This document shows, in pieces, positions 17,686 to 61,334 of a stretch of DNA of 64,000 bases. Position 1 is the stretch's first letter. Every line of letters starts with the position of its first letter. The stretch comes from Granulicella arctica (GTDB taxonomy: Bacteria > Acidobacteriota > Terriglobia > Terriglobales > Acidobacteriaceae). Both the position numbers and the translations under genes were made by a program. Under the pieces are notes generated by a model. It searched no databases, had not been told where the DNA came from, and saw only the letters and a program-made list of their open reading frames with translations. The stretch covers positions 1,736,001 to 1,800,000 of the forward strand of contig NZ_JACCCW010000002.1 of assembly GCF_013410065.1 (NCBI RefSeq), written 5' to 3'.

Positions 17686-17771
17686 AAAACGTCTCCCAAT
17701 ATCTTGCCAGAGTCCCGCTCCGGCTCCTTCTATACTTGCATGATGCGACAACTCCAAGAGGCCAACAAGGG

Positions 17772-18383
17772 ATGACGCTCTACGTTGCCACCACCAACCC
17801 CGGCAAGATCCGCGACTTCGCAACTGCCGCGGGCGAGATCTCCATCGAACCGCTGCCCGGACTCGCCGCGATCCCTGCCCCTGCGGAGGACGAGCCCACC
17901 TTTGAAGGCAATGCGCGGACGAAGGCGCTCTATTACTCCACCCACGCACCGGGGCTGATCGTTCTGGCCGATGACTCCGGCCTGGAGGTCGACGCCCTCG
18001 ACGGAGCTCCCGGCGTGCGCTCCGCCCGCTATGCCGACGACTCCGGCTATCCCACTAGCCCCGGAGCAACGCTCGACGAGCGGAACAACGCATGCCTGCT
18101 TCACGCGCTTGCCGATGTAGCCGAGAGCCAGCGCAAGGGGCGGTATCGCTGCTCCCTCGCCGCGGCCCGTGACGGCAAGATACTCGAAGTCGCAGACGGT
18201 ACTGTGGCAGGGGAGATTCTCAATGTTCCACGTGGAACATCCGGCTTCGGATACGACCCACTCTTCTTCCTGCCTCAGTATCAGAAGACGATGTCCGAGC
18301 TGGACCCGGTAACCCGCCTCTCAGTCAGTCATCGCGGTAACGCGCTTCGAAAATTATTGGCCATCCTTGCCTTACCAAACTAG
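17772..18383 (+). CDS. rdgB: Non-canonical purine NTP pyrophosphatase (RdgB/HAM1)
   Basis: 203 residues from ATG 17772, which gives the standard N-terminus [16 protein letters not shown]. Further motifs are [33 protein letters not shown] and GFGYDPLFF, then [19 protein letters not shown]. The enzyme hydrolyses ITP, XTP and their deoxy forms to the monophosphates, keeping deaminated purines out of DNA and RNA. A perfect parS palindrome lies inside the reading frame, encoding the NVPRGTS turn in a spot that other family members also fill with similar residues. It diverges from yjbQ. Confidence 0.95.
18223..18240. other. parS centromere-like site (inside rdgB)
   Basis: A perfect 18-base palindrome whose 16-base core TGTTCCACGTGGAACA (18224-18239) matches the chromosomal ParB-binding site parS; the B. 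subtilis form differs only by T/A for C/G at two symmetric positions. It is embedded in the rdgB coding region. A second copy is at 58167-58188. Confidence 0.85.
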
Positions 18384-56880: not shown

Positions 56881-56943
56881 ATGAATCGGAATTACAGTGG
56901 CGCTTGCGGGCAGTGCGCCCTGTCGCTAGACTCGCAGAAGTGA
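56881..56943 (+). CDS. Possible 20-residue leader peptide
   Basis: ATG 56881 opens a 20-codon frame, MNRNYSGACGQCALSLDSQK, whose TGA stop overlaps the GTG at 56940 of the next gene (GTGA). It holds two Cys in a CGQC arrangement. No ribosome site is seen before it, so it may be chance; the overlap suggests translational coupling. Confidence 0.25.
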   Translation: MNRNYSGACGQCALSLDSQK

Positions 56944-58166
56944 CGATCCCCCTCTCCAGTTGCCCCCCGCTGCGGCGTCTCGTTGCGACCCTCCCCTTGT
57001 GCCTGCTGGTTGCAGCGGCAGGATGTCGCCGTTTCGCCTTTCCCGATGTCCCCGCAGGCTACCGCGAGTTCGCCTATGTCAGTAACGGTGCGAGCAATAC
57101 CGTCACCGTCCTCGACCTCGTCTACCTCCGCCAGGACCGCACGCTGCGAGTCGGAAACAATCCTTCCGGGATGGACGTAAATCAAACAAAACAAGAGGTT
57201 TATGTCACAAACGCGCAGTCCGGATCGGTCTCCATAATCGATACCGCAAAGAACCAGGTCGCGGCAACGATTCCGGTCGGCCGGCTACCCTATTCACTCA
57301 GTGTGGAGCCCTCAGGTCTTCGCGCCTTTGTCGCCAACTCAGGCTCGAACAGCGTCAGCGTGATCGACCTCAACCAGCGCCGGGTAGTACAGGTAGCCGG
57401 AACCGGCGAACAGCCCGGCGTGGCGCGTGTCGCGCCTGACGCACGGACGCTGGTGGTCAGCAATCGGGGCAGCGGAAGCGTCTCCATCTTCAACGTCGCG
57501 CCCGATGTAGGGCCTGGCAGTGGCGCGCCGTTGAGCTTACGCGCCACCTTTGGCGGCTGCCCAGGGGCGACCGACGTTGCGATCCTTCCGGACTCATCGA
57601 AGGCGTTTGTCGCCTGCTCCGGAGGACATCAGGTGATGGCCGTCGGTCTGGCTGTGCTCCCCGGATCGTGGGCCGCCAGACATGACACCTCGTTGCTGGC
57701 GGACCACTTTCTGACGTTCCTGGATGTGGGTAAGACACCGGTGCATCTGGCCATGAAGCCGGATGGAGGCGAGATCTTCGTCTCGAATTATGCCTCCGAC
57801 AGCATCTCGGAGGTCTCCACCTCGACCAACGAGGTGGGCGGAACCTATGTCATCGGCAACAAGCCGGTGCATGGCATCGTCAGCGCGGACAATGGGACGC
57901 TGTGGGTCTCGAACTTCGGCGCGGACTCGGTCGGGATCTACAGCATCGACGACGGCAAGCTCGAGGGCAGCGTGCATACCGGTTCCGCGCCGGATGTCAT
58001 GGCGTTCTCGGCGGATGAGCACCTGCTGCTGGTGGCGGACGCACACTCGGGTGATGTATCGGTGATCCGAACGCAGGACAAGCAGGGGCCGGCGTTGTTT
58101 ACGATCCTTCCGGCTGGAGGGTCTCCGAACGACATTGTGGTGAAGGCGATGCAGGGCAAGCAGTAG
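56940..58166 (+). CDS. YVTN-repeat beta-propeller lipoprotein
   Basis: 408 residues from GTG 56940; a TTG at 56904 would add 12. The lipobox LVAAAGC near residue 29 marks it for lipid attachment. The mature part is a beta-propeller of YVTN-type repeats (YVSNGASNTVTVLDL, YVTNAQSGSVSIIDT, FVANSGSNSVSVIDL, VVSNRGSGSVSIF, FVSNYASDSISEV and WVSNFGADSVGIY), about seven blades. Such proteins sit at the cell envelope and are thought to bind other proteins or sugars. A parS palindrome lies directly after the stop. Confidence 0.9.
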   Translation: MTIPLSSCPPLRRLVATLPLCLLVAAAGCRRFAFPDVPAGYREFAYVSNGASNTVTVLDLVYLRQDRTLRVGNNPSGMDVNQTKQEVYVTNAQSGSVSIIDTAKNQVAATIPVGRLPYSLSVEPSGLRAFVANSGSNSVSVIDLNQRRVVQVAGTGEQPGVARVAPDARTLVVSNRGSGSVSIFNVAPDVGPGSGAPLSLRATFGGCPGATDVAILPDSSKAFVACSGGHQVMAVGLAVLPGSWAARHDTSLLADHFLTFLDVGKTPVHLAMKPDGGEIFVSNYASDSISEVSTSTNEVGGTYVIGNKPVHGIVSADNGTLWVSNFGADSVGIYSIDDGKLEGSVHTGSAPDVMAFSADEHLLLVADAHSGDVSVIRTQDKQGPALFTILPAGGSPNDIVVKAMQGKQ

Positions 58167-58188
58167 AAATGTTCCACGTGGAACATTT
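58167..58188. other. parS centromere-like site (intergenic)
   Basis: A perfect 22-base palindrome with the same 16-base core TGTTCCACGTGGAACA (58170-58185) as the copy at 18223. It fills the gap between the convergent lipoprotein and phosphatase genes. It matches the chromosomal ParB-binding site. Confidence 0.9.
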
Positions 58189-58194
58189 TGCGGC

Positions 58195-60384
58195 TTAGAC
58201 CTGGCGGGCGAGGACGAGGGTAATGTCGTCGGGCTGCTCGTCGGCGCCGATCCAGGCGTCGAGGGCCTGCATGACCTGACCGGAGATGATGTGGAGGGGC
58301 TGGTCGCGGTAGCGGCTGACGACCTCCATCAGGCGCTCCTCGCCGAAGTCGCCGAAGTCGTTCTCGGGCTCGGTAACGCCGTCGGAGTAGGCGACGAGGA
58401 TGTCGCCGGACTCCATCTTGAAGCGGCCTTCTTCATATTGCATACCGTCCATGAGGCCGACGACGGTGCCTCCCTTGTCTAAGCGGCGGACGGCTCCGTC
58501 GCGACCCAACAGCAGCGGCGGGAGCTGACCTGCGTTCGAGTAGGTAAGCCACGAGGTGGCGGCGTCGTAGTGGGCGAGGAAGAGGGTCGCGTACTTTTCC
58601 GGTGTGGTGCTGCGGTAGAGGTGGCGGTTGAGCAGCGCCATGATGCGTCCGGGCGAGGCAAAAAGCTCGCCTGAGTCCCCTGCCCTGCCGTCGCGGCTGA
58701 CGGTGAGGCCGGCGACGGAGGATTCGGCGTAGACAACCTCCTCGCTGGCGAAGCGGTAGGCGCGGACGGCGGAGTGCAATGTAGCCATAAGTAACGCGGC
58801 GGAGATACCTTTGCCGCTAATATCGCCCAAGGCAATACCGACACCCGCTTCGGTACGGCCGGGCTGGCCGTTTTGCATGTCCTGATAGAAGACGATGAAG
58901 TCGTAGTAGTCGCCGCTGACGGAGCGGGCGGGACGGCAGACACCGTGGAGCTCGAGGGTGGGGAGATCGCGGACGGAGGATGGGAAGAGGTTGGCCTGAA
59001 CCTCCTGGGCGATGGAGAGCTCGTTCTGGAGGCGCTCTTTCTCCTGCTGCTCTCCGAGGAGGCGCTGGAGCGAGAGAGTCATTTGGTTGAAGGAGCGGCT
59101 GAGGTCGGCGAGCTGGTCGGTGCGGGAGACGGCGATGCGGTGGTTGAGGTTCCCACTGTCGACGTGGAGGGTGGCGTCGTAGAGGTCGGAGACCGAAGCG
59201 GTCATGGTGCTGCTGAGGCGCCAAGCCATAACGAGGGCAAGGTTCTCGATGAGAACGAAGAGAAAGCACAGGATGAAGAGCCCGGTGCGGATCGTTGAGG
59301 TAACGACGCCGCCGAGGGACGAACCGAAGAGCTGGAGATAAAGTAGCGAGGGGCGGGAGTCAACGTAGATGGGAAGACTGTCGGGCTTGCCGGTATCCCA
59401 ATCGATGACGGTGGTTGTGGAGAGAAACGGGACGCGAATATCGGCGATGTTGACGGGAGGTGGTTCGGTTCCTCCGGAGATCTCGCGGGTCCTGGTCCGG
59501 CTGCTTCCCATCATGGAGCTGGCGGATCGGCTTCCAACAGGTCGATCGTCAGCAGCACTCTCGACTCGGACCCCGGCGTGGCCGAGCCCTTCCGCAACGA
59601 TCTCCATAAAGGCGCCGTTGACGGGGAGCCTGGTCAGGAGTGTGAAGAGTCGGCCGTCGTTCATACGCTGCTGTTCGATGGCGACGAGATAGATCTCGCT
59701 TCCGTCGAGAACGACGCTGCGGAAGCTGCCGCCCTTGAGTTCGGTAGCCCAGGCAGGAAGGCCAAGCGGCGCTCCGCCATAGGCTGCGTTTTTGGGAAGC
59801 GTGAGAGGTGCGCCGTTGATGAAGGCTTCGAGACTGCGATGAAGATGGAGATAGGATCGCTGCTCGGCCATCGCAGTGAGGTGTTCGATGTCGTTGATCT
59901 CCTCCACCTGGCTGGTGGTAGCAGAGGAGTTTCCGGGGGCCTGAGTGGCGATGAAATGAGCGATGCGGGCTGCGCGGCCGGCGTTGTCCGCGCCGATCTG
60001 GTCGAGTTCGGCCTGAACGCGGGTGTCGGCCAGGTGAATGGCGAACTGACCGGCGGCGATGTAGCCGGAGATCGTGACGAAGGTGACGACGAGTACGACG
60101 GGGGCGAGGCCGATGAGCAGATAGGTGATGATGAGCTTGTTGCGAAGGCTCCACATCATGCGGTTGCGGATGAACCGCACTACGAGGGGCAACCCGACGC
60201 CGAGAATGCCGAGGCCGACGAGGAATTGCAGGACTCTGAAGAAGGTTCCGGTTTCGCCGGGGATGAGGCTCAGCAACCAGCAGAGAACGAACGAGACGAT
60301 GAGCCAGAAGGCAGCGCCTGCCAGGCCGGTGGGAAGCTTGCGGTCGCGACCGTGCTGTCGAATTGCGTCGAGGATGGTCGGCAT
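58195..60384 (-). CDS. HAMP-containing SpoIIE-type PP2C serine phosphatase
   Basis: 729 residues from ATG 60384, just after the stop of the upstream gene. Two membrane segments near the N-terminus (about 25-70), a third near 85-110 and another near 390 frame a periplasmic sensor region (about 115-385). A HAMP linker (MAWRLSSTMTASVSDLYDATLHV, then NHRIAVSRTDQLADLSRSFNQM) and a coiled coil lead to the phosphatase domain (about 500-725) with DYYDFI-like metal ligands (GDYYDFIVF), ALGDISGKGISAALLMA and AYSDGVTEPEND. It probably dephosphorylates an anti-sigma-type antagonist in response to an envelope signal; partner unknown. Confidence 0.9.
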   Translation of the reverse strand: MPTILDAIRQHGRDRKLPTGLAGAAFWLIVSFVLCWLLSLIPGETGTFFRVLQFLVGLGILGVGLPLVVRFIRNRMMWSLRNKLIITYLLIGLAPVVLVVTFVTISGYIAAGQFAIHLADTRVQAELDQIGADNAGRAARIAHFIATQAPGNSSATTSQVEEINDIEHLTAMAEQRSYLHLHRSLEAFINGAPLTLPKNAAYGGAPLGLPAWATELKGGSFRSVVLDGSEIYLVAIEQQRMNDGRLFTLLTRLPVNGAFMEIVAEGLGHAGVRVESAADDRPVGSRSASSMMGSSRTRTREISGGTEPPPVNIADIRVPFLSTTTVIDWDTGKPDSLPIYVDSRPSLLYLQLFGSSLGGVVTSTIRTGLFILCFLFVLIENLALVMAWRLSSTMTASVSDLYDATLHVDSGNLNHRIAVSRTDQLADLSRSFNQMTLSLQRLLGEQQEKERLQNELSIAQEVQANLFPSSVRDLPTLELHGVCRPARSVSGDYYDFIVFYQDMQNGQPGRTEAGVGIALGDISGKGISAALLMATLHSAVRAYRFASEEVVYAESSVAGLTVSRDGRAGDSGELFASPGRIMALLNRHLYRSTTPEKYATLFLAHYDAATSWLTYSNAGQLPPLLLGRDGAVRRLDKGGTVVGLMDGMQYEEGRFKMESGDILVAYSDGVTEPENDFGDFGEERLMEVVSRYRDQPLHIISGQVMQALDAWIGADEQPDDITLVLARQV

Positions 60385-60389
60385 TCCGG

Positions 60390-61334
60390 TCAGCCCTCCA
60401 GCTCGGCCTGGCGCGCGAGCCGGAGGGTGTAGCGCGTGGCGGAGAAGTGGGCTCCTGCGAGGAGCATAAGGCCGGAGAGGAAGGCCCACATCATGAGGCC
60501 AACCGATATATAGAAGGGACCATAAACGGATTGGAAGTCCAGCCAGGGCTGTGCGAGGACGTAGAGATGCTTCGCTATCTCCCAGAGCGCGCCGACCACG
60601 ATGGCTGTGGGCAGGACGGCCCGGGCGGGAATCTGCCGGTTGGGAAGGATCCAATAGATAAGGAAGAAGAGCAGGATACTGACGACGACGGCGGAGATCT
60701 TCAAAGCCCCGACAGCGAGCAGGTTGAAGATGATGTTGTCAGTATGGCCGAAGAAGATCCAGGCGATCAGGTTCCTGTGGCCGGCGTTGAGGGCGACGGA
60801 GGTCATGGCGAGAGCACCGACGGCGAAGGCGAGACCGAGGGAGACGAACTGATTGTGGAGATAGGAGCGGTTTTCGTGGACTCCCCAGACGTTGTTGAGG
60901 GCGACCTCAAGCGGGAGAAAGACGCCGGTAGAGGTGATGAGCAGCATGACGAGCGAGAAGATCTGGGTCCCCTTATGAGGATGGGCGAGGAGGGCCATGT
61001 TGCGCATGACGAAGTCCTGACCTACGGGGAGGAAGCTCTTCATCAGGTCGGCGACGACATCTTCCATGGCACGGGAGTGGAAGAGCTGGCGGGAGAGCGT
61101 CAGCAGCAGGACGATGAAGGGAAAGAGCGAGAGGATAGCGTTGGCCGCGACGGAAAAGGCATAGGTATGGACCTCGGTCCTGGTCAGGTAGCGGACGAGG
61201 GCGACGAACTGGGGCCAGAGGCCGTTTTTGCGGACGACGGGGCGGAGCTCTTCGACCGGGACGACAGGGGGAGCGAGTTCGGTCGGCTCGGGTTTGGTAT
61301 GGGTTGGTCCGGTTTGTGAGGCGGGGACGATCAT
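60390..61334 (-). CDS. YihY/BrkB-family membrane protein
   Basis: 314 residues. A cytoplasmic Pro/Glu-rich N-terminus (about 1-45) is followed by six membrane segments with the family hallmarks: the early VRYLTRTEVHTYAFSVAANAILSLFPFIVLLLTL, GVFLPLEVALNNVWGVHENRSYLHNQFVSLGLAFAV and IYWILPNRQIPARAVLPTAIVVGALWEIAKHLY. The family was once called ribonuclease BN in error; its true function is unknown. The SpoIIE phosphatase gene starts 6 bases after its stop, so they are probably one operon. Confidence 0.9.
   Translation of the reverse strand: MIVPASQTGPTHTKPEPTELAPPVVPVEELRPVVRKNGLWPQFVALVRYLTRTEVHTYAFSVAANAILSLFPFIVLLLTLSRQLFHSRAMEDVVADLMKSFLPVGQDFVMRNMALLAHPHKGTQIFSLVMLLITSTGVFLPLEVALNNVWGVHENRSYLHNQFVSLGLAFAVGALAMTSVALNAGHRNLIAWIFFGHTDNIIFNLLAVGALKISAVVVSILLFFLIYWILPNRQIPARAVLPTAIVVGALWEIAKHLYVLAQPWLDFQSVYGPFYISVGLMMWAFLSGLMLLAGAHFSATRYTLRLARQAELEG

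Follow-up and report, generated by a model that had tools for sequence, protein, structure and literature searches.

This locus raises the question of why a perfect palindrome with an exact parS core should lie inside the reading frame of rdgB, and whether that palindrome, with a second copy near 58 kb, places the surrounding DNA near the replication origin, as an earlier note on this DNA had argued. The window referred to throughout is the whole stretch analysed, 64 kb in length (C2:1736001-1800000), from a genome of 4.31 Mb in three contigs (G000).

Both palindromes are present as the note had described them (Table 1). The copy in rdgB, A-TGTTCCACGTGGAACA-T, is perfect over its 18 bp, its core matches the 16-bp palindromic TGTTCCACGTGGAACA type without a mismatch, and by sequence it looks like a genuine parS. 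The start of rdgB is more likely the ATG at 17772 than the TTG at 17736, where the open reading frame as listed begins, and the site is indeed embedded in the coding frame, read as AAT GTT CCA CGT GGA ACA to encode NVPRGT. Each of these six codons is uncommon in G000, and the product of their synonymous fractions is ~2e-5. The copy near 58 kb is likewise an exact 16-mer, and the window holds no further match to the core even when 3 mismatches are allowed. At the same tolerance, shuffled versions of the window gave a mean of 0.20 matches, with two matches reached in 1 of 100 shuffles.

Table 1. Positions of the parS sites and neighbouring genes in the window (plain numbers) and of the origin-side features of the genome (contig or locus coordinates)
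Feature	Position	Strand	Evidence or context
rdgB, non-canonical purine NTP pyrophosphatase, Ham1 family	17772..18383	+	Pfam PF01725, E=4.9e-51; PDB relatives 2pyu, 1k7k
parS site within rdgB	18223..18240		exact 16-mer core TGTTCCACGTGGAACA at 18224-18239
Beta-propeller (lactonase-like) gene, left of second parS	56904..58166	+	ORF and Pfam
Second exact parS	58170..58185		between convergent genes, 3 bp past one stop, 9 bp before the opposing gene end
HAMP-SpoIIE phosphatase-type regulator, right of second parS	58195..60654	-	ORF and Pfam
dnaA	C1:1111967-1112449		cluster sits between dnaA and parB
oriC-side parS cluster	C1:1124329-1126606		11 exact sites and one near site
parA	L019:16762-17670		between cluster and parB; motif and sub-cut-off family matches
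parB	C1:1128997-1129914		ORF L019:18998-19918

The inferred position of the window does not hold. The dnaA gene, parAB and the origin-side switch in GC skew all lie on another contig, ~1.5 Mb away. Over the sampled stretches the skew becomes positive at ~C1:1.1 Mb, and its return to negative is drawn out over ~C2:0.92-1.10 Mb, where the signal is noisy (negative from ~0.93 Mb, positive at 1.04-1.07 Mb and negative from ~1.10 Mb); the terminus is placed by this skew alone, a search with a dif consensus having found nothing useful. With C1 and C2 presumed to be joined head to tail, as the skew implies, each half of the chromosome measures ~2.15 Mb, and the rdgB site lies 1.51 Mb and the second site 1.47 Mb away from the origin, so that the window is not near it, and the positions of dnaA, parB and the skew switch exclude the near-origin reading. 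Both sites thus fall outside the origin domain (about 20% round oriC), a location that is usual for parS and not obligatory.

Across the whole genome the 16-mer has 38 exact, 8 one-mismatch and 4 two-mismatch matches, compared with no exact match and a single match at up to 2 mismatches for a reversed-pattern control. Copies at many places in the genome were the outcome that the earlier note had said would tell against it, yet 38 copies far exceed chance expectation and are non-randomly spaced. The cognate parA and parB adjoin 11 exact copies of the same site, as is characteristic of parS. The ParB of G000 is canonical, scoring above the TIGR00180 cut-off and containing the GERR and ENLQR boxes, and by our own mapping of positions it keeps the equivalents of R173 and G201, which are described as conserved across all ParBs in the relevant part of PMC7383237. 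As minor observations on this region, a low-complexity tract (ORFs of the NSNSNS and QMQMQM type) lies between parA and parB (L019:17681-18241), and short dispersed repeats of ~70-240 bp are common to the G000 loci L003, L005, L006, L007, L019 and L028, several of these copies being near dnaA and parAB.

The other 27 of the 38 exact sites lie outside the cluster; with sites grouped at 5 kb they make up 19 loci, separated by gaps of 24-486 kb. Distance from the origin is uniformly distributed across the two arms (KS p=0.97), and pairs occur as far out as 1.91 and 2.04 Mb. The spacing is also more regular than random in each of the 16 ways of grouping and including sites that were tried (P 0.00045-0.046, in a test designed after the positions had been seen). 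One pair (C2:998161) falls within the skew-transition zone and another (C2:866577) ~0.05 Mb outside it; an avoidance of the terminus like that of Noc is unsupported, given these two pairs. Most of the dispersed sites (21 of 27) are intergenic according to a home-made gene caller, which is weak and makes counts of site context approximate.

With a probability of about 0.68, the rdgB palindrome is one of these 27 dispersed exact parS sites, at each of which, as at the 11-site cluster, ParB likely forms a clamp. The best reading of the sequences is that they represent ParB-loading sites dispersed over the chromosome, a rare variant of ParABS. ParB would load as a CTP clamp at every exact site, and around each dispersed one a small domain of ParB-CTP clamps would form by local spreading, such that the 19 dispersed loci would tile the chromosome; by analogy with model ParABS systems, these could be local stations for SMC recruitment and loading or for chromosome organisation. 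The cluster at the origin, dense and replicated first, would stay the site that ParA pulls.

It is highly improbable that the palindromes are instead transcription terminators, or a mobile palindromic repeat, that merely resemble parS. Many sites do lie just past stop codons or between convergent genes by the rough gene calls, and inverted repeats of at least 28 bp (at least 6 extra bases on each side) surround 6 of the 38 sites in G000 and 14 of 111 in other genomes. Nevertheless, a TTTT within 12 nt on either strand accompanies only 5 of the 27 scattered sites, which as a set lack the signature of intrinsic terminators, and the flank common to scattered sites extends to only 2-3 bp on each side, which argues against copies of a longer repeat. 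In two relatives, G062 and G096, the parS core lies within a longer perfect inverted repeat, 42 and 38 bp in length (L121, L131), and between the two the arms differ by compensatory changes around a fixed core. Both this fixed 16-mer and the construction of the parAB cluster from the same 16-mer run counter to a terminator or repeat.

A reader other than the chromosomal ParB, controlling division in the manner of Bacillus Noc, is also very unlikely. There is a candidate in a second protein with a ParB domain, the gene for which lies at C1:328789-329280 (L017; a 684-aa ORF, near a 305-aa ORF), and a third, weak ParB-domain match occurs at C2:1251414. The 684-aa ORF exceeds the cut-off of the general ParB domain model but falls below those for PRTRC and Noc, and based on its below-cut-off NCBIfam match it is perhaps PRTRC-like and part of an integrated element. 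The scattered sites are identical in sequence to those at oriC, whereas Noc sites are reported to be unlike parS and to avoid the terminus (in the relevant parts of PMC7383237 and PMC4331003), and one pair here is in the skew-transition zone. The chromosomal ParB itself is no Noc by its score against TIGR04285 (203.3 bits, cut-off 315).

Exact sites lie inside a recognised Pfam domain in three genes: rdgB, an alanine racemase gene (alr) and a gene for a PMT-type glycosyltransferase. The glycosyltransferase site also encodes NVPRGT, while the exact site in alr encodes CSTWN and its one-mismatch partner MFHVE, both beside a 5-residue insertion that shows in the two top alignments with racemases of known structure. 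Between them the exact coding sites use two of the reading phases and the near site uses the remaining one, from which it follows that the DNA and not the peptide recurs. A parS inside a gene has a precedent in parS1 of C. glutamicum, located in trpCF according to the pertinent section of PMC7083940.

A match to rdgB was found in 58 of 60 genus genomes and could be read in 57 (G106 was unreadable), with one copy scored per genome. Over these 57 genes the site is exact in G000 only, with one mismatch in G085, three in G083 and 5-11 in the other 54. In a 25-taxon tree of ParB and RdgB, the closest relative of G000 is its sister G070 (support 0.995), which has 8 mismatches at the site, and G085 is placed elsewhere; independent gain in rdgB is therefore the simpler history. 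A conserved ancestral rdgB site was rejected, the site being exact in one genome of 57 and missing from the sister. The description of NVPRGT as a variable turn is correct for N (2/57) and V (5/57) but not for PRG, which is common (37/57 readable RdgBs in the genus) and means that part of the core is commonly encoded already. Judged by sequence, the rdgB copy looks like a lineage-specific gain at a place where the common PRGT peptide already permits part of the core.

This same history lends something to the notion of a coding coincidence confined to the rdgB palindrome, in which the codons of a PRGT-type peptide happened to complete the 16-mer and the site stands outside the dispersed set: PRG supplies part of the core in 37 of 57 genes, and just one of the 57 has the exact site. 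Coincidence is nonetheless improbable, considering the synonymous probability of ~2e-5 for the codon combination, the glycosyltransferase site with the same encoded peptide, and the half-old, half-new form in the same codons of G085, although that hybrid also occurs singly in G096 and G099.

The relatives were sampled as 60 genus, 60 family and 395 phylum genomes, which overlap and each include G000. At least one exact copy is carried by 54 of 60 genus, 49 of 60 family and 161 of 395 phylum genomes, and more than five copies by 12, 4 and 8 genomes, respectively, with G000 counted each time. The 38 copies in G000 are the highest count in every sample, followed by G096 with 21 and G005, G017 and G062 with 15 each; 48 of the 60 genus genomes have 0-5. 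Seven relatives (G096, G071, G062, G005, G014, G017 and G060) each combine 3-11 scattered sites with a cluster lying a few kb or less from parB. Among ten other relatives scanned at up to 2 mismatches, every exact site of G117, G114 and G112 is by parB, as is the single exact site of G085; one further exact site is found 0.18-0.52 Mb off in G100, G098, G092 and G070, and three more in G082. The single 3.69 Mb contig of G017 has scattered sites and no exact one in the ~1.37 Mb opposite its cluster, which indicates that full tiling is not general. G110, a genus member that is 99% complete, has no exact parS, and its two one-mismatch sites near parB have changed end bases. Within an alignment of ParBs that leaves out G005, three substitutions at near-invariant columns in G000 gave no explanation for the high copy number, and the four specificity positions showed no change exclusive to G000.

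Conservation of individual scattered sites is partial, some copies being retained between relatives at corresponding intergenic positions. For five of six scattered loci in G062, the aligned position in G096 also bears an exact site, with flanks 82-86% identical, when about 0.3 of 6 would be expected without constraint (by arithmetic from the flank identities). In G000, one site of the pair at C1:1464562 aligns exactly with a site in G070 at 75% flank identity, its partner being eroded in G070, and the site at C2:1292862 shares an intergenic gap, at a different base, with a site in G096. Only these 2 of the 19 scattered G000 loci were matched to site-bearing loci elsewhere; the others, including both window sites, found no partner among 60 compared loci, which were chosen for carrying sites.

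These patterns bear on whether the scattered sites have been selected. It is possible, and is put forward tentatively, that this lineage has made parS into a selected, evenly spaced array of stations for loading ParB, and perhaps SMC, from origin to terminus, even in the codons of rdgB, alr and the glycosyltransferase gene. A less probable situation, and an unlikely one, is that the scattered sites are bound by ParB and idle, arising by drift and tolerated under neutral turnover as the ParA and SMC machinery ignores them. The scarcity of G000 loci matched in relatives, the 0-5 exact copies in 48 of 60 genus genomes and the lineage-specific rdgB copy are all in keeping with idle sites. Conversely, drift would not readily account for the exact sites shared by G062 and G096 despite eroded flanks, for the excess of exact over degenerate copies in G000 (38, 8 and 4 at 0, 1 and 2 mismatches), or for the regular spacing, and parS sites far from the origin come at a cost elsewhere. 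In Pseudomonas extra copies at a distance from ori are harmful, and with parS placed 1 or 1.5 Mb rightward of oriC strains are described as impossible to build or propagate (PMC5098823, in the part concerned). Caulobacter disfavours additional parS in the middle of the arm and tolerates it to a limited degree close to ter (PMC5815017, likewise in part). A selected array, if real, would stand as a natural exception to the rules on parS competence zones and SMC collisions drawn from model bacteria.

The G000 arrangement shares features with several known systems. The ParABS systems of Caulobacter, Pseudomonas and Corynebacterium have the same type of parS 16-mer, a parAB operon and a cluster on the oriC side. 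Elsewhere the vast majority of parS sites lie within the ori domain (as summarised in part of PMC7022226); in contrast to such oriC-clustered systems, 27 of the 38 exact sites in G000 are outside the cluster and reach the zone where skew puts the terminus. Scattered parS has been described as restricted to a few lineages, Bacilli included, and as seemingly counterproductive for avoiding SMC collisions (in the section of PMC8357415 on this subject). Like G000, B. subtilis Spo0J has several parS sites outside a tight cluster, but the ~10 sites given for it in part of PMC7022226 compare with 19 scattered loci here, regularly spaced and continuing into the terminus zone, in a bacterium whose rdgB finds its closest named records among the Acidobacteriaceae. 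The Noc/NBS system of Bacillus resembles G000 in its ~70 sites for a ParB-family protein round most of the chromosome (the relevant part of PMC4331003). It differs in using another DNA site and a paralogue that bears an amphipathic helix at its N-terminus, and in having no sites in the terminus region, whereas the G000 sites are true parS by sequence and extend into that zone. P. aeruginosa ParB also makes contacts at many chromosomal places (parts of PMC7022226 and PMC10419367), but these are half-parS with narrow peaks, unlike the full, exact 16-bp palindromes of G000. For the Acidobacteria, the available part of PMC2099444 contains nothing on the distribution of parS. The presence of exact parS at 1.0, 1.5 and 2.0 Mb from the origin suggests either that evolution can remove the limits found in model bacteria or that parS in dispersed form has a job of its own, a question that can be tested in the genus relatives, whose exact copies number 0 to 21.

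G085 additionally provides what may be a natural case of ParB and parS co-evolution in the shifted consensus of its cluster. The parAB cluster of this genome (L314, C1:2876000-2882500) consists of five copies of TGCTCCACGTGGAGCA and one canonical site, a pattern to be expected if the sites track a single recognition protein, and a sixth copy of TGCTCCACGTGGAGCA lies 43 kb away. The exact TGCTCCACGTGGAGCA was found in no other of the 60 genus genomes, and the ParB alignment revealed no obvious residue to explain the shift. The rdgB of G085 carries TGCTCCACGTGGAACA in the codons that hold the G000 site, one half being new and the other old. This hybrid occurs at two further places in G085. It is also present once each in G096 and G099, outside any known cluster, and these single occurrences mean that the G085 rdgB form could be due to chance. 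In G075, however, TGCTCCACGTGGAACA is found four times beside parA- and parB-like ORFs (recognised by motif), which makes it plausible, though not proven, that the hybrid is a working site.
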